Shown here: positions 21,028 through 57,351 of the stretch, one piece after another
How the letters are laid out: each line of letters opens with the position of its first letter
Numbering within the stretch: the first letter of the stretch is position 1
Origin: Psychrobacter sp. BI730
GTDB lineage: Bacteria; Pseudomonadota; Gammaproteobacteria; Pseudomonadales; Moraxellaceae
Assembly (NCBI RefSeq): GCF_013414195.1
Contig: NZ_JAATTV010000009.1
Location: 62,001-126,000, forward strand
Reading direction: 5' to 3'
Length of the DNA: 64,000 bases
The notes under the pieces: model-generated
What the model saw: the letters and a program-made list of their open reading frames with translations, nothing else
The model's database searches: none
What the model was told of the DNA's origin: nothing
Translations under genes and position numbers: made by a program

Positions 21028-21104
21028 TGGTGGCGATGAAGAGACTTGAACTCTTGACCTCACGATTATGAGTCATGCGCTCTAACCAGCTGAGCTACAT
21101 CGCC
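21028..21104 (-). tRNA. tRNA-Met (anticodon CAT), elongator type
   Basis: 77-nt cloverleaf with encoded CCA. The acceptor stem is GGCGATG/CATCGCC, the D-arm is GCTCAGCTGGTTAGAGC, the anticodon stem is CATGA/TCGTG with loop CTCATAA (anticodon CAT), and the T-arm is AAGAG-TTCAAGT-CTCTT. The overall sequence resembles elongator tRNA-Met. tRNA-Ile2 (CAT modified to lysidine) shares the anticodon loop and cannot be excluded by eye. There is a terminator immediately downstream. Confidence 0.93.
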
Positions 21105-21226
21105 GTTTTAGGCTGCACATTATGCCCAAGCTGTTGACTGCCGTCAACCCCTAATAAGCATTTTTTGCAAAAAAATGAATTTAATTCAGATTAATTGCAA
21201 CTATTACTATAACAAACAATAAAAAA

Positions 21227-21594
<368 letters not shown>

Positions 21595-34146: not shown

Positions 34147-34208
34147 TGCGTGTTCGTTTGATACGTTTATAAAGACGGCTATAAAAACCAGTTCCAAATA
34201 GACGGTTG

Positions 34209-34315
34209 TACAGTCAGTTCAATATAATTTCGATAAAAGGAAACCGAGTGCAAGTTATACATTAGTATGCTTAGCGAGGATGACGATGTAGCGGATTTAT
34301 ATAGACTTGACTATA
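34209..34315. repeat. Palindromic element copy A (degenerate)
   Basis: Member of the ~105-bp palindrome family. The left arm contains CAGTCAGTTCAATATAA and the right arm, read in reverse complement, begins TAGTCAAGTCTATATAA. The conserved centre is partly kept: AAACCGAGTGCAAG on the left side and AGCGAGGATGACG on the right. It is the most divergent of the five copies and abuts copy B. Confidence 0.75.
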
Positions 34316-34421
34316 TGGTTGATTCAATTTAAAAGTAGTACAAGGCAGCCGAGTGCAGTTGTAACTGTGATACTTTAAGCGAGGTTAACGCTGTCATTCT
34401 TTTATAGAGGATTGACTCTAT
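34313..34421. repeat. Palindromic element copy B
   Basis: Centre shared with copies C and E: GGCAGCCGAGTGCAG and AAGCGAGGTTAACGCTG. Outer arms pair imperfectly: TTGATTCAATTTAAAAG on the left against TCAATCCTCTATAAAAG (reverse complement of the right arm). It directly follows copy A in the same orientation and lies about 100 bp upstream of a lipoprotein gene. Confidence 0.85.
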
Positions 34422-47743: not shown

Positions 47744-47779
47744 AAAAAAAGCAGCACGTTTTGAACGTGCTGCTTTTTT
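47744..47779 (+). terminator. Bidirectional terminator between coaX and ivd
   Basis: Perfect 10-bp stem GCAGCACGTT/AACGTGCTGC with a 3-nt loop (47751-47773), with A and T tracts on both sides. It serves converging genes. Confidence 0.95.
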
Positions 47780-47833: not shown

Positions 47834-49021
47834 TTATTTGGTCTCGTTAAACAGCTCACGACCGACTAGCATACGGCGAATTTCACTGGTACCTGCGCCA
47901 ATCTCATACAGCTTGGCATCGCGCCAGTAGCGACCAAGTGGATACTCGTTGGTATAGCCATTACCGCCAAATATTTGAATACCCTCGCCTGCCATCCATG
48001 TGGCTTTTTCGGCACACCATAGAATCACACTGGCACAGTCTTTACGCACTTCTCGACTATGACCAGCACCGCGCGCGTCCAACATATCGAGGTTTTTACC
48101 CACGGTATATAGGAAGCTACGACCGGCTTGCAGTATGGTATACATGTCCGCAACTTTACCTTGGATAAGCTGAAACTCACCGATGGCTTGACCAAACTGC
48201 TTACGATCATGGATATAAGGCACAACATTGTCCATCACTGCTTGCATGATACCAATAGGACCTGCAGCCAATACAGCGCGCTCGTAATCTAGGCCACTCA
48301 TCAATACCTTAACGCCTTCATTGAGACCGCCCAAGATATTTTCGCTTGGTACTTTTACATTATTAAAAGTCATCTCGCCAGTATGGCTGCCACGCATGCC
48401 GAGCTTGTCTAGCTTTTGTGCGGTACCAAAACCTTCCATACCTTTTTCAACGATAAAGGCCGTCATGCCTTTTACACCCATCTCAGGGTTGGTCTTGGCA
48501 TAGACCACCATTACGTCAGCATCAGGACCATTGGTGATCCACATTTTGCTACCGTTCAAAATATAGCTACCGTCTTTTTCTTCAGCTTTTAGCTTCATAC
48601 TAACGACGTCTGAGCCAGCGCCTGTCTCACTCATTGCCAATGCACCGATGAATTCACCGCTGATTAGTTTCGGCAGATATTTCTGCTTTTGTTCTTCAGA
48701 ACCATTACGTTTGATTTGGTTAATACATAGATTAGAGTGTGCACCATAGCTAAGCGCTACCGATGCCGAAGCTCGGCTAATCTCTTCCATCGCGACCATA
48801 TGGGCAACGTAGCCCATGTTGGAGCCGCCGTACTCTTCAGGAACGGTAATGCCATGTAGACCGAGGTCACCCATCTTCTGCCACAGATCCATTGGGAACT
48901 CATCACTGCTATCAATCTCAGCAGCACGTGGAGCGATCTCGTTTGCTGCAAACTGCTGTACGACATCACGTAGGGCGTCGATATCTTCGCCAAGTTGAAA
49001 ATTCAATCCAGGTAAACTCAT
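47834..49021 (-). CDS. ivd: Isovaleryl-CoA dehydrogenase
   Basis: FAD-dependent acyl-CoA dehydrogenase that turns isovaleryl-CoA into 3-methylcrotonyl-CoA in leucine breakdown. Substrate/FAD segments: [15 protein letters not shown] (FAD-binding), [17 protein letters not shown], and [38 protein letters not shown] at the C-terminus; the catalytic Glu lies in the helix before [10 protein letters not shown], by family comparison. 395 aa. It is the last gene of the minus-strand leucine cluster, with a 205-bp gap after the HMG-CoA lyase gene that holds palindromic element C. Confidence 0.93.
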
Positions 49022-49116
49022 AACTATTCCTTGTATATAAATATTTTTAATATCTTGAATTTTAATCTGTTTTTTAAAGCCAATATAACTGTATTTTTGA
49101 TACCGTTTTTAATGTC

Positions 49117-49222
49117 ATAGTCAATTTAATGTGAAAGTATGGCAAGGCAACCGAGTGTAGATGTATATCGAATACTTCAAACGAGGTTAACGCTGTCATA
49201 CCTTCACAGTGCATTGACTATA
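49117..49222. repeat. Palindromic element copy C
   Basis: About 105 bp in the HMG-CoA lyase-ivd gap. The left arm is ATAGTCAATTTAATGTGAAA; the right arm read in reverse complement is ATAGTCAATGCACTGTGAAG, so the two ends pair along about 20 bases with few mismatches. The centre is shared with B and E: GGCAACCGAGTGTAGATGTA and ACGAGGTTAACGCTG. The best-preserved hairpin of the family. Confidence 0.92.
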
Positions 49223-49226
49223 CTAA

Positions 49227-50147
49227 TTAAGACTGGCGTTTATTAATGATGGCACGTGCCACATTTGAGCCATTCGGACGCTTTAAGAACGCACTGATAC
49301 GCTCGCCTGCCACGACCAATTTTCCCAAATCGATACCTGTGCTAATACCCATGCCATGCAGCATATACACCACATCTTCAGTCGCGACATTGCCCGTTGC
49401 GCCTTTAGCATAAGGACAACCGCCCAAGCCAGCGACAGAGGTATCAAACTCACTCACACCCATCTGCAAGGCAGCCAAAGTATTGCTCAATGCTTGACCA
49501 TAAGTATCATGAAAATGACCCGATAGCATAGAGATATCGGCATACTCAAGTGCTGCCTGCAAGGCTCGTTGTACTTTGAGCGGTGTACCCACACCGATCG
49601 TATCGGCAATGCCAATCTGCTCTGAACCGATCTCAATCAAACGCTTGGTGACATACGCTACTTGGCTAGGGTCAATCTCACCTTCATAAGGACAACCAAC
49701 CGTACAAGAAATCACGCCACGTACTTTGATGCCTTGCGCTTTTGCCGCAGCAGCCACTGGCGCAAAACGTTCGATACTCTCATCAATACTACAGTTGATG
49801 TTTTTTTGACTAAAGGTTTCACTGGCTGAGCCAAAGATGACGATTTCATCAGGGCGATGTACGATGGCATTTTCAAATCCGCGCATATTGGGCACCAGTA
49901 CCGAGTAGCAAACGTCCGTCTGCCGCGTCGGTGCTAGTGCGTCGAGCAACGCGCTGTTATCGCCCATTTGTGGCACCCACTTTGGCGAGACAAAACTGGT
50001 CGCCTCTAACTTCTTGACACCCGCCGCAATCAAATCATTGATAAGCGTTTGCTTAACCTCAGTCGGCACCGTCATGGATTCGTTTTGTAGTCCATCACGC
50101 GGACTGACATCAACGATGCTGACATGGCTTGGATACGAATGGCTCAT
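49227..50147 (-). CDS. hmgL: Hydroxymethylglutaryl-CoA lyase
   Basis: Cleaves HMG-CoA to acetyl-CoA and acetoacetate in the last step of leucine breakdown. TIM-barrel enzyme with the family patterns VSPRDGLQNE near the N-terminus (metal-binding), KLEATSFVSPKWVPQM, SGHFHDTYGQALSN (metal-binding His) and the catalytic-Cys loop VAGLGGCPYAKGATGN. 306 aa. The ribosome site AAGGAC lies before the ATG. Also called liuE or mvaB in other genera. Confidence 0.95.
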   Translation of the reverse strand: MSHSYPSHVSIVDVSPRDGLQNESMTVPTEVKQTLINDLIAAGVKKLEATSFVSPKWVPQMGDNSALLDALAPTRQTDVCYSVLVPNMRGFENAIVHRPDEIVIFGSASETFSQKNINCSIDESIERFAPVAAAAKAQGIKVRGVISCTVGCPYEGEIDPSQVAYVTKRLIEIGSEQIGIADTIGVGTPLKVQRALQAALEYADISMLSGHFHDTYGQALSNTLAALQMGVSEFDTSVAGLGGCPYAKGATGNVATEDVVYMLHGMGISTGIDLGKLVVAGERISAFLKRPNGSNVARAIINKRQS

Positions 50148-50206
50148 ACTTGTCGTCCTTTTTGTTATTTGCCCTTTTATGAGACTTTTTTATTAGGCTT
50201 CGTCAG

Positions 50207-52306
50207 CTATGCGCTTTCGCTATCGATGCGCAGTAGCTCATCACCATCAGCGACCAAGTCACCTGCTGCAAATAATAGCTCTGCTACCACACCATCTGTC
50301 GGTGCGGTAATCGTGTGTTCAATTTTCATAGCTTCGATGACGGCAAGTGGTTCGCCTTTTTTCACAGTATCGCCAACAGCTACTTTGAATGCAACCACTT
50401 GTCCTGGCATTGGTGATTTCAAACTGCCAACTGCTGCTGTGTCTTCGCCCACATGTGCCATGATATCAATAAGCGTAATTTCATCACGTCCGCTATCTGT
50501 GAATACGTAGACTGTCTCGTTATTTACCCAGCTTTGGGCACTGATACGTGCACCATCTAACCATAAAGTATGATTGTGCGTGTCACTGCTATCATAGCTG
50601 ATCTGACCTTCATAAACCGTTTCGGTCTGAGCAGCCACATTGATATTGCTATCATCCTGCGTATTCGCGATTTTTTTACCAATGACGAGCGTAAAACTAC
50701 TGAGATTATCGCCGCCTTTTTTGCTATCAGTACAACTCGCATTATGCCAATTACTGATACGAGCGCTATAAGCCTGCTCATCATAAGCCAAGCTAAATGA
50801 ACGAGCATAATCGCTGTAAGCACGGAAACCCGTTGGCTTGCTAAATGGATCTGAGCTCTCCGTGGTCGCTTCGCTCGCAAGCTTCTGAGCAATAGCAGTC
50901 ACCACAAGCGTCGATAATCCAAGCGGATGCTGATCAAAAAGCTTATCCTGCTCACGTTCTATCAATGCCGTATCAAGATTGGCGTTGCTAAATGAATCGG
51001 TATTTAAAATATAACGCAAAAATGCCACGTTATTTGGCAGACCAACGATACGAGTCTGTGCCAATGCATGGTCTAGTCTCGCCAACGCTTGCTCGCGCGT
51101 AGGAGCATGCACGATAAGCTTGGCAATCATAGAGTCGTAAAAAGGACTGATCACATCACCCTCACGTACGCCATCGTCGATACGCACATCGGTAATGTTA
51201 AAGGTACTATGCTCAGGCTTTTGATAAGTGAATAAAGTTCCTGTCGCTGGCAAGAAATTATTGTCAGGGTTTTCGGCACAGATACGCGCCTCAATAGCAT
51301 GACCATTGATAACCAGATCGTCTTGCGTTTTTGGCAATGGCTGACCCGCAGCAACCAACAGCTGCCACTCGACCAAATCGACACCCGTAATGGCCTCACT
51401 AACTGGATGCTCAACTTGCAAGCGCGTGTTCATTTCCATGAAATAAAAATTCATAGAGTCTTCACGCTGCTCAACGATGAATTCAACCGTACCTGCACCC
51501 ACGTAATCAACCGCACGTGCTGCTTCGATTGCCGCTGTGCCCATCGCTTCACGCATGGCAGTATCAACACCGGGCGCTGGCGCTTCTTCTAGTACTTTTT
51601 GATGGCGACGCTGTACTGAGCAATCACGCTCAAACAGGTGCACATAATTACCATGCGTATCACCGAATACTTGGATTTCGATATGACGTGGTTTTAGCGC
51701 GTATTTTTCAACCAATACCTGATCATTGCCAAAACTGGTAATCGCTTCTCGGCGACAGGAGTCTAGCAGGTCAATAAAATCGCTGCTTTTTTCAACGATA
51801 CGCATACCTTTACCACCGCCACCTGCACTCGCTTTAATCAAGACAGGATAGCCAATACTATCGGCCTGCTGCTGCAAAAACTGTGCATTTTGGTTGTCAC
51901 CATGATAACCGGGGATCAGCGGCACGCCAGCCGACTCCATCAAGCGCTTAGACTCAGACTTACCGCCCATAGCGCGAATAGCATCTGCCGATGGGCCAAT
52001 AAATACCAAGCCAGCATCTTGGCAAGCCTGTGCAAAATCAGCATTTTCACTTAAAAACCCATATCCTGGATGAATCGCTTGGGCGCCCGTCTCAAGCGCT
52101 ATCGCAATAATAGCATCGCCTTTTAGATAACTGTCTTTCGGTGCCGAACCGCCTAAATAGATAGCTTCATCACAGACAGCCACATGTTTGGCCTCACGAT
52201 CCGCATCGGAGTAAACAGCAACGGTACTGACGCCAAGACGCTTAGCAGTCGCGGCCACTCGGCAAGCAATTTCACCACGGTTGGCGATTAGAATTTTAGA
52301 AAACAT
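50207..52306 (-). CDS. mccA: Methylcrotonyl-CoA carboxylase, biotin-containing alpha subunit
   Basis: Biotin-dependent carboxylation of 3-methylcrotonyl-CoA (leucine pathway). The biotin carboxylase part has ATP-grasp features (IKASAGGGGKGMRIV, VQRRHQKVLEEAPAP, EMNTRLQVEHPVSEAITG). The C-terminal biotin carrier domain has SPMPGQVVAF and VIEAMKIEHTI, with the biotinylated lysine at about K661. 699 aa, within the range for MCC alpha (650-720). It is expected to be a substrate of the BirA encoded in this window. Confidence 0.95.
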   Translation of the reverse strand: MFSKILIANRGEIACRVAATAKRLGVSTVAVYSDADREAKHVAVCDEAIYLGGSAPKDSYLKGDAIIAIALETGAQAIHPGYGFLSENADFAQACQDAGLVFIGPSADAIRAMGGKSESKRLMESAGVPLIPGYHGDNQNAQFLQQQADSIGYPVLIKASAGGGGKGMRIVEKSSDFIDLLDSCRREAITSFGNDQVLVEKYALKPRHIEIQVFGDTHGNYVHLFERDCSVQRRHQKVLEEAPAPGVDTAMREAMGTAAIEAARAVDYVGAGTVEFIVEQREDSMNFYFMEMNTRLQVEHPVSEAITGVDLVEWQLLVAAGQPLPKTQDDLVINGHAIEARICAENPDNNFLPATGTLFTYQKPEHSTFNITDVRIDDGVREGDVISPFYDSMIAKLIVHAPTREQALARLDHALAQTRIVGLPNNVAFLRYILNTDSFSNANLDTALIEREQDKLFDQHPLGLSTLVVTAIAQKLASEATTESSDPFSKPTGFRAYSDYARSFSLAYDEQAYSARISNWHNASCTDSKKGGDNLSSFTLVIGKKIANTQDDSNINVAAQTETVYEGQISYDSSDTHNHTLWLDGARISAQSWVNNETVYVFTDSGRDEITLIDIMAHVGEDTAAVGSLKSPMPGQVVAFKVAVGDTVKKGEPLAVIEAMKIEHTITAPTDGVVAELLFAAGDLVADGDELLRIDSESA

Positions 52307-52383
52307 AACTATCCCTGTGTCTTGTCGTTATTATTTGACGTCTTGTCTATTTACCCATTTGCCTATCATTGTTCTGCTACTAG

Positions 52384-53193
52384 TTAGTCTGCCATTAGCC
52401 AATCAGGTTTACGCTTTTGCAAAAAGGCTTGCACGCCCTCTTTGCCTTGCTTTGATGAGCGGATATCAGCGATACCTTTGACCGTGTCAGCAATCAGCTC
52501 ATCTGTAATAGGCGCACCCGCGACATCGTGTAATAGCTGTTTGCAGGTTTTTACCGCATCAGGGCTATTTTTGACGACCTTATTACAGAATGCAGCCACT
52601 TCATCGGCCAGCCCTTCTTCGCTAACACGCTCATGGATAAAACCAAGCTGACGTGCCTTTTTGGCATCAAATACTTCAGCACTTAAGAAATAACGCTGCG
52701 ATGCTCTAGCACCTAGCGCTCGGATAACATAAGGACTGATAGTGGCAGGGGCCAAGCCCAAACGCACTTCACTGAGGCAGAAATTAGCAATTTTGACCGC
52801 AATGGCTACGTCGCAAGCAGCGACTAGACCCATGCCACCTGCGTATACATCGCCTTGAATAGCCGCGACTGTTGGCTTAGGGCATTCATAAATAGTCTTA
52901 AGCATTTGCGCCAATTTATCAGCATCCGCTAGATTCTCTTCATAGCTATAATCTGCCATGGCACGCATCCAATTGAGGTCAGCGCCTGCACAAAAAGCCT
53001 TGCCAGCAGCGGCTAGCACAATGACACGTACCTCATCATCAGCACCAAGCGTATTGAACGCATCGGTTAGCTCAGCAATCATTTCATCATTAAAAGCATT
53101 ACGTATCTCAGGACGATTTAAGGTCACTGTCGCCACGTGCTGCTCGACGTTAACCAATAGGCTTTTATAATTTTTATTACTGTCTTTTTGCAT
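52384..53193 (-). CDS. liuC: Methylglutaconyl-CoA hydratase, enoyl-CoA hydratase family
   Basis: Crotonase-family protein that hydrates 3-methylglutaconyl-CoA to HMG-CoA, next to the carboxylase genes. The oxyanion-hole part AAGKAFCAGADLNWMRAMA and the second CoA-binding GDVYAGGMGLVAACDVAIA are clear, with LGLAPATISPYVI in the middle. The frame extends upstream to a TTG at 53226; the ATG at 53191-53193 was chosen (269 aa). The name rests on the crotonase motifs plus its place in the leucine cluster. Confidence 0.9.
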   Translation of the reverse strand: MQKDSNKNYKSLLVNVEQHVATVTLNRPEIRNAFNDEMIAELTDAFNTLGADDEVRVIVLAAAGKAFCAGADLNWMRAMADYSYEENLADADKLAQMLKTIYECPKPTVAAIQGDVYAGGMGLVAACDVAIAVKIANFCLSEVRLGLAPATISPYVIRALGARASQRYFLSAEVFDAKKARQLGFIHERVSEEGLADEVAAFCNKVVKNSPDAVKTCKQLLHDVAGAPITDELIADTVKGIADIRSSKQGKEGVQAFLQKRKPDWLMAD

Positions 53194-53235
53194 AACTTTC
53201 TCTATATTTTTTATGTAAATACTCAAACAAACTCT

Positions 53236-53349
53236 TGGTCAATCCATAATAATGTTAATACAAAGAAACCAAGTGCAAAGACTAAGCGTAGATGTACAAA
53301 TCGTACTTTAAATGAGGTTAACGCAGTAGTCGCTTATTATGGGGAGACT
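53236..53349. repeat. Palindromic element copy D (divergent)
   Basis: In the gap between the hydratase and MCC beta genes. Its outer ends differ from the other copies but pair with each other: left GGTCAATCCATAATAATG against right (reverse complement) AGTCTCCCCATAATAAGCG. Remnants of the centre: AAACCAAGTGCAAAG and AATGAGGTTAACGCAG. A short extra segment occurs in the left half. Confidence 0.75.
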
Positions 53350-53358
53350 TTAGAACGC

Positions 53359-54969
53359 TTACATTCTAAAGACACCAAATTTCGTCTCTTCAATCGGCGC
53401 GTTATAAGCCGCACTTAATCCTAACGCCAATACATTGCGCGTATCAGCAGGGTCAATCACGCCATCGTCCCACATGCGCGCGGTAGCATAATACGGATGA
53501 CCTTGCTCTTCATACATTTCACGAATCGGCGCTTTAAATGCGGCTTCGTCTTCGTCGCTCCACGCTTCACCTTTGCGATCAAAGTTATCACGTTTGACCG
53601 TTGCCAGTACTGACGCTGCTTGCTCACCGCCCATGACAGAGATACGCGCATTTGGCCACATCCATAAGAAACGCGGGCTGTAAGCGCGGCCACACATACC
53701 GTAATTACCAGCGCCGAACGAACCACCGACGATAACCGTGAACTTTGGCACTTTTGCATTAGCCACTGCCATTACCATTTTGGCGCCATGACGAGCGATA
53801 CCTTCATTCTCGTATTTGCGGCCAACCATAAAGCCTGTGATGTTTTGCAGGAATACTAATGGGATTTTGCGCTTACAGCATAGCTCGATGAAGTGCGTAC
53901 CTTTTTGCGCTGACTCACTGAACAAGATACCGTTATTGGCAATAATACCAACAGGCATCCCTTCGATATGAGCAAATCCACAGACCAGCGTCGTACCAAA
54001 GCGTGCTTTAAACTCATCAAAGGCACTGTCATCAACGATACGCGCGATGATTTCTCTGATATCAAATGGCTTGCGCTTGTCCGTTGGAATCACACCGTAT
54101 AGCTCTTTGGCGTCATAACGCGGCGGACGCGATGTGATTTGATTAGGAATGTTTTTTGCAGGGCGATTTAGATGGCTGACGATATTACGGGCAATTGATA
54201 GTGCATGCGTATCGTTTTGCGCTAGATGATCGACCACGCCCGACAGTCGGGTATGTACATCACCACCGCCCAAGTCTTCTGCCGTGACCTCTTCACCCGT
54301 CGCTGCTTTGACTAGTGGTGGACCACCCAAAAATATCGTACCTTGCTCTTTGACGATAATAGACTCATCACTCATGGCAGGAACATAAGCACCACCAGCC
54401 GTACAGCTACCCATAACCACAGCTATCTGCGGAATACCTGCTGCACTCAGATTTGCTTGATTAAAAAAGATACGGCCGAAATGTTCTTTATCCGGGAACA
54501 CATCATCTTGGTTCGGTAGGTTTGCACCACCTGAATCAACCAGATAAACGCACGGTAGATGATTTTCTTGAGCAATTTCTTGGGCTCGTAGGTGTTTTTT
54601 GACCGTCATTGGGTAGTATGTGCCGCCTTTTACCGTGGCATCATTACAGACAATCATACACTCGATACCATTGATACGGCCGATACCTGCAATCACGCCA
54701 GCAGCCGGAATCTCTTCGCCATACATATTATGTGCAGCCATCGGTGCCACTTCTAGGAACGGCGTGCCTACATCCAATAAACGCTCGACGCGCTCACGTG
54801 GTAACAGCTTACCACGCGCTAGATGCTTGGCTCGTGCGCGCTCTGAGCCACCTTGGGCAACTTTACGCAAGTGTACATACAGGTCATCGACTATCTCTTG
54901 CATAGCGGCACTGTTTTGCTGAAAATCGCTTGAGTTTGGACTCAGTTTACTGGTTATGATAGCGCTCAT
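53359..54969 (-). CDS. mccB: Methylcrotonyl-CoA carboxylase, carboxyltransferase beta subunit
   Basis: Transfers CO2 from carboxybiotin to 3-methylcrotonyl-CoA. Carboxyltransferase signatures are visible: [22 protein letters not shown] (start), [41 protein letters not shown] and [32 protein letters not shown]. The ORF starts at 54993, but AAAGGG lies before the ATG at 54967-54969, the better start (536 aa). Flanked on both sides by palindromic elements in the intergenic gaps. Confidence 0.95.
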
Positions 54970-55060
54970 GATATCCCTTTTTTTCTTATACATAGATACG
55001 TAGATGTGAGTAGCTTTTTATATAAATGATACTAACTACTATTTTTAAGCATTGCTCACA

Positions 55061-55168
55061 TATAGTCGATTCAATTTAAAAGTAGTACAAGGCAACCGAG
55101 TGCAGATGTATGTGTGATACTTCAAGCGAGGTTAACGCTGTAATACTTTTATAGTGAAATGAATATGG
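55061..55168. repeat. Palindromic element copy E
   Basis: In the 236-bp gap between MCC beta and the acyl-CoA synthetase. Left arm GATTCAATTTAAAAGTAGTAC pairs with the right arm, whose reverse complement is CATTTCACTATAAAAGTATTAC. The centre reads GGCAACCGAGTGCAGATGTA and AAGCGAGGTTAACGCTG, nearly identical to B and C. Confidence 0.9.
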
Positions 55169-55205
55169 TTAGTCTTTTGTTTTTTAGAGCAGATAAGTAA
55201 GCTTG

Positions 55206-56981
55206 CTACAAACCCAACTCTTCTTTCATTTGCTCAATGATTTTATATTTTTGAATTTTTCCAGTGATGGTCATTGGATATTCAGTCACAAAGCGATAGT
55301 AAGTCGGCACTTTATAGTGAGCGATATGCTCACTACAGAACTCGCGTACTTCCTGTTCAGTCAAGCAGCCAGGCTCTTTCGGAATAATCCACGCTGCCAG
55401 CACTTCACCATAACGCTCATCTGGTATACCCACGATTTGCACATCACGAATCTTAGGATGACGATAGAGATAATTTTCAATTTCTACTGGATAGATATTT
55501 TCGCCGCCGCGAATCACCATATCTTTACTACGGCCGACGATTTTTACGTAGCCGTCTTCGTCCATTGTGGCCAAGTCACCCGTATGCATCCAACCATCTT
55601 GAATCGCCTCACGCGTTTTAAAGCGGCTGCCCCAATAGCCTTTCATCACGGAATAGCCTCGTGTAAGCAACTCACCCGTCTCACCCAACGGGACAATTTC
55701 ACCTGTTTCTGTATCGACGACTTTGACCTCAAGCGCAGGCTGTACCAGTCCTACTGTCGAGACTTGTTTATCAAGTGGCGTGTGCTCATTGGTCTGGCAA
55801 GATACAGGACTGGTCTCTGTCATACCATAGGCAATAGTAACTTCGCTCATGTGCATCTTATCGATGACGCGGCGCATAACCTCAATCGGACAGCTAGACC
55901 CAGCCATGATACCCGTGCGCAAGGTCGATAAATCAAAGTTTTCAAACTCAGGATGGTCAAGCTCAGCGATAAACATCGTTGGCACGCCGTGCAGACCTGT
56001 ACACTTTTCTTCTTCGACTGCCTGCAATACGGTCAATGGCTCAAAGCCGTCGTTTGGATATACGATACAACCGCCATGCGTGAGAATCGCTAGATTACCA
56101 AGCACCATACCAAAGCAATGGTACAGAGGTACTGGAATACACAGTCTGTCCTCTTCAGTGAGGTTCATGGCTTCACCGATAAAGTAGCCATTATTTAAGA
56201 TATTACGATGGCTTAAGGTTGCACCTTTTGGTGTACCTGTCGTACCACTGGTGAACTGTACATTGATAGCATCGGTGTTTTTAAGCTGAGCTTGACGCTC
56301 AGCAACACGCGGATCGTTGGCATCGCCCTCGCTCATCCACGCAGAGAACTTTTGCATAAAACCGAAGGTCTCATCCGACTCTGGCTCATCAATCCAGATG
56401 ATGCGTTCAATCGTCGGAATCTCAACCAAATCAAGCTGAGTGTAATCTTTATGGTAAATTTCAGGACATAGCTCACGGATTAAACTTGCGTAATCACTGG
56501 TTTTGAAATGACGCATAAGCACGAGCGCTGAGCAGCCCAATTTATTTAAGGCATATTGCAACTCAAAAGTACGGTAGGCAGGATTGATATTAACGAGGAT
56601 GACGCCGACTTTTGCCGTGGCCAACTGCATGAGTAACCATTCAGCATTGTTGTGCGACCATATACCGATACGATCACCAATCTCTAATCCCATCTCAATC
56701 ATACTACTGGCTAGCTGATTCACTTGCTGCTGTAGCTCACGATATGTCCAACGGATATTTTGATGGCGGACGACCAGTGCTTCGCGCTCAGGATATTTGG
56801 AAACAATAGCATCAAAAAAGTCACCGATTGTCGCTTCAATCAGCGGTACATCAGGACCTTTATCATAGCTTTGAGTAAGTGGTGCATTGGCTGAGCGTGC
56901 GCCCATATTGATACTAGGAATATTGTTTAAAATAGTATCGAAGTCAACGCGAGTCGAATCGAAATCAGGAGTTTGAGTCAT
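55206..56981 (-). CDS. AMP-binding acyl-CoA synthetase of the leucine cluster
   Basis: ATP-dependent carboxylic acid:CoA ligase of the ANL superfamily. The P-loop motif [18 protein letters not shown], the [10 protein letters not shown] core and the C-terminal [16 protein letters not shown] hinge are clear; the final [10 protein letters not shown] has the catalytic Lys position. It is first in the leucine/isovalerate cluster, so it may activate isovalerate, 3-methylbutyrate or acetoacetate; the substrate is not proved. The frame begins at 57026, but ATG 56979-56981 with AAGGAC upstream is the better start (591 aa). Confidence 0.9.
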
Positions 56982-57351
56982 AACGAGTCCTTTCGTTTTA
57001 CTTTTTATAGTATTTATAAATAGCACTTATTAATAGCCTGCGTGCAAACCTTCTTCCTTGGGCAGGTCTTACATAGCATTCAGCTACTATAACGCCATCA
57101 ATGAAAGCCTGTCAATAATATCAATACATTATGTATCATTTAATTGGATAATCTGCCTTTCTACTTAGTAAAAAGTAACATAGAATCATGGCAAATATTT
57201 GACATAAAAAAGCCAGCCACATCATAAGGAATGGGCTGGCTTAATTATCAACACTGTCGTTTATCTAAATTGTCTGGAAAGCATCTAATAAAGGACATCA
57301 CTTATAGATGATGTGCTTTTATTAGTTTTTCTAAAGACGGTACTGCAATCG
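56982..57351. other. Intergenic region acyl-CoA synthetase-rubredoxin reductase
   Basis: 370 bp. It holds the promoter and leader of the leucine cluster (no clear hexamers) and the terminator of the rubredoxin reductase-like gene at 57206-57245. No further element recognised. Confidence 0.4.
57206..57245 (-). terminator. Terminator after the rubredoxin reductase-like gene
   Basis: Stem AAGCCAGCC/GGCTGGCTT with a 15-nt loop and a T run on the minus-strand side, about 110 bp after the stop of the gene at 57352. Confidence 0.85.

Follow-up and report, generated by a model that had tools for sequence, protein, structure and literature searches.

A leucine-degradation gene cluster of Psychrobacter sp. 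BI730 holds short palindromic elements in three of its five gaps, which raises the question of whether these elements regulate the cluster or are traces of past insertion. The cluster lies in a stretch of 64,000 nucleotides (contig NZ_JAATTV010000009.1, positions 62,001 to 126,000; here called the window) of a 3.26-Mb genome assembled in 42 contigs. It is encoded on the minus strand and transcribed in the order acyl-CoA synthetase (acs), carboxyltransferase (mccb, MCC beta), enoyl-CoA hydratase (hyd), biotin carboxylase-type subunit (mcca, MCC alpha), hydroxymethylglutaryl-CoA (HMG-CoA) lyase (hmgl) and acyl-CoA dehydrogenase (ivd). The leucine-pathway names rest on gene context, except for that of HMG-CoA lyase, which passed its own NCBIfam cut-off.

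A sequence-only reading of the window had proposed that the palindromes either set the relative amounts of the subunits, by stabilising or cutting the mRNA, or had simply inserted into permissive gaps. Our comparison favors the latter. The three elements, copies C, D and E, are very probably Correia-like, TA-targeting miniature inverted-repeat transposable elements (MITEs), most likely mobilised by IS630-family transposases, and their presence would reflect insertion history, not designed regulators.

A dispersed family of palindromes

The positions of C, D and E in three of the five gaps were verified with a repeat finder, BLAST and a covariance model (Table 1). All three methods agreed on B, C and E; D was found by the covariance model, with a BLAST search from E returning only a 25-base piece (E value 1.15). 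As had been noted from the sequence, the remaining copies in the window, A and B, share a single other intergenic gap (34206-34420). Copy A matched B at 60% with the repeat finder, reached a BLAST E value of only 2.14 and is absent from the covariance-model list at E ≤ 0.01, being recognised also by its end.

With copy E as the query, BLAST returned 37 further matches in the genome at E ≤ 10, 25 of them below 0.001 (26 counting E itself), so the palindromes are not chance occurrences. An alignment of 19 copies has a mean column identity of 86% and gives a 107-nt near-palindromic consensus that runs from TATAGT to ACTATA. In a survey of placement that excluded five weaker loci, all 25 copies lay outside predicted open reading frames of at least 60 amino acids (20 between tandem genes, 3 between divergent and 2 between convergent ones). 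The five window copies have the same orientation, C reading against the cluster genes under the orientation arbitrarily assigned to the family; an orientation rule was rejected, the genome-wide counts for the copies between tandem genes being 12 antisense and 8 sense. The grouping of the cluster copies is likewise weak evidence for unusual clustering, since three copies fall within 6.15 kb somewhere in such a genome with a probability of 0.014-0.075 when 21-37 copies are placed randomly.

RNA folding on the gene strand, compared with shuffled sequences, gave z-scores of -5.78 for C (-36 kcal/mol), -3.80 for E, -1.39 for D and -0.55 for B. Only C and E of the three cluster copies fold clearly better than their shuffles, and the "three hairpins" are really two. 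An Rfam search of the window gave no match to the palindromic elements, the only matches being RNase P RNA (21226-21592) and a tRNA (21031-21104).

With the covariance model scoring no more than 11 places per genome, 94 of the 105 Psychrobacter genomes were positive for the family, as were 13 of the 243 from other Moraxellaceae genera (3 in genus g23, 2 in g29 and 8 in g35). Elements of three other Moraxellaceae genera are 105-108 bp long, mostly have TATAGTC ends and contain core words common to Psychrobacter and Correia elements. Among ten chosen genomes, the number of matches ranged from 1 to 111, counts in which second-strand matches of the palindrome are possibly included; the highest was that of G350 (genus g35), with 111 matches in 2.2 Mb. 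A class-wide sample of 369 genomes yielded matches only in BI730 itself and in one of the 368 others, G719, which belongs to another family of the class. Two palindromes in that genome (L265, 1400-1720) contain the Correia-like core words CAAGGCG...GCGAG...AACGC; this match has no TATAG ends, and the distribution of the core may be wider than that of the ends. Copy E had no match in plasmid and phage collections, nor did a 701-bp stretch around it in plasmids. Other MITE families, with TATAGTC ends and different cores, occupy gaps of the same cluster in L123 and L159 (mcca/hmgl) and in L165 (acs/mccb), with lengths of 146, 147 and 130 bp.

Insertion and loss in orthologous clusters

Synteny of the cluster is preserved across the 88 Psychrobacter loci retrieved, three of which are incomplete. 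We scored the orthologous gaps with the covariance model at E ≤ 0.01, after dropping L031 and L032 as repeats of L134 and L140. An element was present in 17 of 88 acs/mccb gaps (15 of them copy E, with different insertions in L145 and L190), 29 of 88 mccb/hyd gaps, 1 of 87 hyd/mcca gaps, 1 of 85 mcca/hmgl gaps and 20 of 85 hmgl/ivd gaps. Per cluster, 48 loci have no element (two of these being incomplete), 21 have one, 10 have two and 9 have three. The two gaps that are free of elements in BI730 were correctly measured from the sequence as 59 and 77 bp, but the view that they are too short to hold one did not stand, as other Psychrobacter genomes have elements there (L135 in hyd/mcca, L123 in mcca/hmgl).

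Comparison of filled and empty sites revealed duplication of a TA target at several of them. Empty acs/mccb sites with a TA were found in L125, L128, L129, L132 and L133; that of L128 reads ...GAAC-TA-TGTGAG..., and in E-carriers the element lies between duplicated TAs. In L133 the hmgl/ivd gap has been entered independently, at a different TA, and this site is empty in L125 and L129. Of the 14 relatives that carry E and have a visible hmgl/ivd gap, 5 lack copy C (L111, L112, L113, L115 and L120), and in L141, L155, L167 and L169 it has shrunk to a stub of its two ends, an internal-deletion scar. The gaps examined in relatives yielded no clean empty site for D. The element at L003, a locus not linked to the cluster, is present in 12 of 14 relatives; in G113 and G070 the site is precisely empty.

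Insertion into permissive gaps is thus borne out by empty sites in relatives, TA duplication, independent insertions elsewhere and deletion scars. The proposal that hairpins set the subunit amounts received no positive support: D folds poorly, more clusters lack an element than carry one, and C is missing beside E in several relatives. A regulatory set of three was rejected as the main reading, the full set being found in 9 of the 88 loci and D being decayed. The sequence-only reading had held that absence from the same gaps of related strains, with expression unchanged, would argue for neutral insertion; for the sequence half of this argument, the elements prove to be optional.

These patterns are consistent with a non-coding MITE of ~107 bp (net insertion ~105 bp) that would enter TA dinucleotides and duplicate them, mobilised in trans, most likely, by IS630-family transposases of insertion sequences (IS) with similar ends. 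Copies would persist where their harm is small, that is, in intergenic gaps, so that their presence in the leucine cluster would be a matter of insertion history, and their effect on its expression is probably near neutral.

Relation to IS630-family and Correia elements

PF13358 was found (E ≤ 0.001) in 84 of 105 Psychrobacter genomes, and 61 of the 105 contain close relatives of a protein that in BI730 lies at the edge of two contigs. Of 29 IS630-type loci inspected, 26 hold an element of 905-916 bp bounded by TATAG ends. One of the loci, L334, has two overlapping reading frames with an IS630-type helix-turn-helix and a DDE domain (PF01710, PF13358), and its transposase scores 112 bits with NF033545, for which the NCBIfam IS630 cut-off is 100. 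The BI730 genome holds IS groups G1 (L234 and L235, contig-edge fragments), G3 (L232, 906 bp) and G6 (L230, L231). Typical MITE ends agree with IS630-family 3' ends in 25, 25 and 26 of 30 bases, a level reached by none of 20000 shuffles for each (maxima 23, 23 and 24), and the general likeness of the MITE ends to IS630-type ends is solid. Two end-matching groups, G1 and G3, reside in BI730 itself. The best IS group for 17 in-register MITE ends was G1 in 7 cases, G2 in 6, G3 in 3 and a tie of G1 and G5 in 1, which is suggestive of a pairing of subfamilies with particular IS groups.

Research on Correia elements dates back to the 1980s and concerns two human pathogens. Searching viral contigs with the published Correia patterns provided natural elements of 69 to 156 bp. 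The Neisseria uptake word GCCGTCTGAA occurs 80 times in the 21 loci that yielded them, against ~0.3 expected, with at least one copy in 19 of the 21; a 5-kb piece of one such locus (L254) had no match in the phage collection.

Aligned end to end with three 106-107-bp Correia elements, our consensus is identical in 76, 77 and 80 of 110 columns. For each of these elements, the alignment score was reached by none of 2000 shuffles of each of three kinds: plain, palindrome-preserving, and palindrome-preserving in the interior with 14 bases fixed at each end. The fixed-end shuffles gave maxima of 76-80, compared with observed scores of 97-109. Alignment in the same orientation scored 109 and in reverse 70, and three other Psychrobacter MITEs with the same kind of ends and other cores scored 50-59 against the 106-107-bp class, for which the family reached 109. 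Among 17 chosen sequences, identity between genera was highest in the terminal 7 bases (0.86 and 0.75), followed by the core (0.68) and the arms (0.52 and 0.41). The family falls into the 104-108-bp class with a TA target and has full-length core similarity to Correia elements, a profile search being positive for two of the three of that length.

The strict Correia pattern (a 26-bp repeat with at most 3 mismatches) has no site in the window, whose copies show 8-12 mismatches, and all Psychrobacter copies tested miss it by at least 6 (best copies 6-12); we therefore call the elements Correia-like. These mismatches would explain why the Psychrobacter copies escaped published pattern searches, in which 3-5 were tolerated. 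Correia elements (CREE, NEMIS) are described as near-palindromes of 104-108 bp with TATAG ends, mostly intergenic and present in many copies, which insert ~105 bp at a TA (or CA) target (PMC2649163, PMC2229807). The Psychrobacter elements share these features and differ in the 26-bp repeat pattern and in their host, which belongs to another class branch; a form of 153-157 bp was not seen, although no search aimed at it was made. Correia elements have been called unique to Neisseria (PMC5039591), their mobilising mechanism is given as undetermined (PMC2649163), and RNase III processing of their transcripts is reported (PMC10969869, PMC2649163). A literature search, made without subscription journals and ISfinder, found nothing on Correia-type elements in Psychrobacter and no paper pairing both terms. 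Within the literature searched, the elements form a Correia-like MITE family new for Psychrobacter, a variant of the Correia-type elements that is probably IS630-mobilised, and we infer common descent with the Correia elements. Correia ends gave modest scores against Psychrobacter IS ends, which is only suggestive of IS of the Psychrobacter type as the mobiliser of Correia elements themselves.

Other known systems show partial likeness. RUP of Streptococcus pneumoniae, compared by description only, is a 107-bp MITE with a TA target and with ends resembling those of a resident IS630-family element, IS630-Spn1 (PMC2229807). The TATAG-ended MITEs of Candidatus Thiomargarita nelsonii, also compared by description only, have a Correia-like structure and a link to the IS630 family, but their interior is called significantly divergent from Correia elements (PMC4853749). 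MITEAba12 of Acinetobacter, from the same bacterial family, is likewise a MITE with ends matched to a transposase, but it makes 9-bp target duplications, has ISAba12-type GGCTTTGTTGCACAAA ends and is unrelated (PMC6382973).

Conservation around copy E and rival explanations

We measured divergence as mean pairwise differences, with gaps ignored and indels uncounted. Copy E is the least divergent of the copies compared, at 0.017 in 16 species (0.031 in the rest of its gap and 0.214 at fourfold sites). The corresponding values are 0.104, 0.166 and 0.321 for C (17 species) and 0.088, 0.213 and 0.370 for D (28 species), and orthologous control copies gave 0.039 (flanks 0.055 and 0.082) and 0.060 (flanks 0.037 and 0.054). 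In E-carriers, the element-free hyd/mcca gap is about as conserved as the acs/mccb gap (0.028 vs 0.024). The acs/mccb gap is still conserved in five near species without E, at 0.047 compared with 0.27-0.29 at mid-gene fourfold sites, and is not conserved in 12 more distant species without E (0.231). A divergence scan revealed a quiet stretch of ~400 bp over the acs/mccb gap and the start of mccb, with the starts of acs and mcca similarly quiet; the first 40 codons are equally so (mccb 0.014, acs 0.027, mcca 0.055). Silent sites are strikingly conserved, compared with mid-gene, at the starts of mcca (52209-52328), mccb (54846-54966) and acs (56697-57116). Copy E may thus sit in a conserved leader and may have been exapted there; its low divergence is suggestive of selection but is not separable from the conservation of its gap in near relatives. 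Local recombination is another possible source of the quiet stretch.

A conserved inverted repeat, GTGAGTAGC...GCATTGCTCAC (window 55003-55066), lies upstream of MCC beta and directly adjoins copy E. It is found in near relatives without E too and is a possible leader or operator. A strong hairpin resembling an intrinsic terminator is located at 47745-47779, between the last cluster gene and its convergent neighbour. In G106 and G088, the MCC beta gene is in two pieces with stops.

Table 1 Palindromic copies, cluster genes and promoter-like match in the window
Feature	Position	Strand	Basis or remark
Copy A, divergent, subfamily-3 end (TACAGTCAGTTCAATATAATTTCG...)	34206..34310	+	Repeat finder, end match
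Copy B, 107-nt element, in tandem with A	34314..34420	+	Repeat finder, BLAST, covariance model 113.4 bits
Copy C, 4 bp past the HMG-CoA lyase stop codon, in the ivd/HMG-CoA lyase gap	49116..49222	+	109.6 bits
Copy D, old, degenerate, in the hydratase/MCC beta gap	53234..53352	+	Covariance model 40.5 bits
Copy E, core intact, one terminal repeat decayed (ends GAATATG), in the MCC beta/acyl-CoA synthetase gap	55061..55167	+	127.8 bits
Acyl-CoA dehydrogenase, ivd (isovaleryl-CoA dehydrogenase) by context	47834..49021	-	No NCBIfam model over cut-off
Hydroxymethylglutaryl-CoA lyase (hmgl)	49227..50147	-	Over NCBIfam cut-off
Biotin carboxylase-type subunit, MCC alpha (mcca) by context	50207..52306	-	Passes cut-off of general biotin-carboxylase subfamily
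Enoyl-CoA hydratase family (hyd), methylglutaconyl-CoA hydratase by context	52384..53226	-	Start probably further in
Carboxyltransferase subunit, MCC beta (mccb) by context	53359..54993	-	
Acyl-CoA synthetase (acs), first cluster gene transcribed	55206..57026	-	
Promoter-like match TTGACA-18-TATAGT, 11/12, upstream of acs	57086..57115	-	Region's best; consensus match only

Several observations weigh against reading C, D and E as nearly neutral, Correia-like MITEs moved by IS630-family transposases. Copy E changes far more slowly than fourfold sites, which is unexpected for a purely neutral insertion. In the profile search, two of the 106-107-bp Correia elements were matched with E values of 6.4e-7 and 5.8e-5 and the third only with 0.24, while the 155-bp class gave ~0.1 or worse; against the latter class the consensus scores 53, below two unrelated MITEs (72 and 80). 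Of the 22 MITE ends tried, 5 were misregistered and left uncounted, and where a subfamily is paired with an IS group, the margin over the next-best group is one base (25 vs 24 and 26 vs 25) or two (25 vs 23). PF13358 is missing from eight genomes in which the family is matched (G009, G015, G017, G024, G033, G063, G068 and G102); these now lack the proposed mobiliser, so transposition there would be past or would have come from another source. Finally, identity between Psychrobacter and Correia elements is just a little higher in the core (0.60) than in the arms (0.54). This last point is also what would be expected under convergence, in which short AT-ended palindromes serving similar transposases become Correia-like, as are the core-like match without TATAG ends in G719, outside the family, and the modest agreement of Correia with IS ends, end similarity alone being expected from related transposases. 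We nevertheless regard convergence as unlikely, given that shuffles preserving both the ends and the pairing never reached the score of any of the three Correia elements, that end-sharing MITEs with other cores score so low, that the same orientation aligns clearly better than the reverse, and that the central GTACAAATAGTAC is common to other Moraxellaceae genera and Correia elements.

Regulatory hairpins, through which the transcript would be cut by RNase III or mRNA ends protected so as to set enzyme amounts, would be most credible for copy E on its own, through exaptation, and even so we consider them improbable. The good folding of C and E on the gene strand, the low divergence of E despite its decayed terminal repeat and relative to the control copies, the unconserved gap of distant species without E, and the RNase III processing reported for Correia transcripts in the papers cited above would fit such a role, but most relatives' clusters are without an element, the gap of E is conserved in near species that lack it, the hyd/mcca gap and the gene starts are equally quiet, and the hairpin of D has decayed. 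Changes to both partners were seen in four base pairs, with 9 and 7 sequences involved for two of the pairs; this covariation was not accepted as evidence of RNA pairing, as the changes follow two subfamilies, and the two strongest, which separate these subfamilies, may follow the ends of two IS groups. Palindromes of the REP type, units of 20-40 bp with an associated tyrosine transposase, resemble the family in being short, palindromic, intergenic and numerous, but movement by such a transposase is scarcely credible for a 107-bp element with terminal repeats, TA duplication and IS630-like ends. It is also very unlikely that the copies act as portable promoters, in which the next gene would receive a -10 box from the terminal TATAGT or a -35 box from the end TTGACT, a function described for Correia elements: at C, a native TTAATA does lie 18 nt before the terminal TATAGT on the gene strand, in the layout of the "Snyder" promoter (PMC2649163), but this match is 9/12 and matches are fewer than in shuffles (14 vs a mean of 22.7).

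With C, D and E read as insertions of a Correia-like MITE, a wider picture may be sketched, although we find it doubtful at present: Correia elements could be one branch of a superfamily of Moraxellaceae and Neisseria, in which a conserved palindromic core has repeatedly acquired IS630 ends and ridden on their transposases, the core being kept for an intrinsic function, be it in transposition, at the RNA level or to the benefit of the host, and that of E being in service upstream of MCC beta. On this picture, Correia elements would be no peculiarity of Neisseria. The related elements of free-living, cold-adapted bacteria, beside IS630-family elements with similar ends, offer a harmless laboratory system for direct tests of the mobiliser. 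The case also advises caution with palindromes in operon gaps, for which a comparison with relatives should precede any assumption of a regulatory role.

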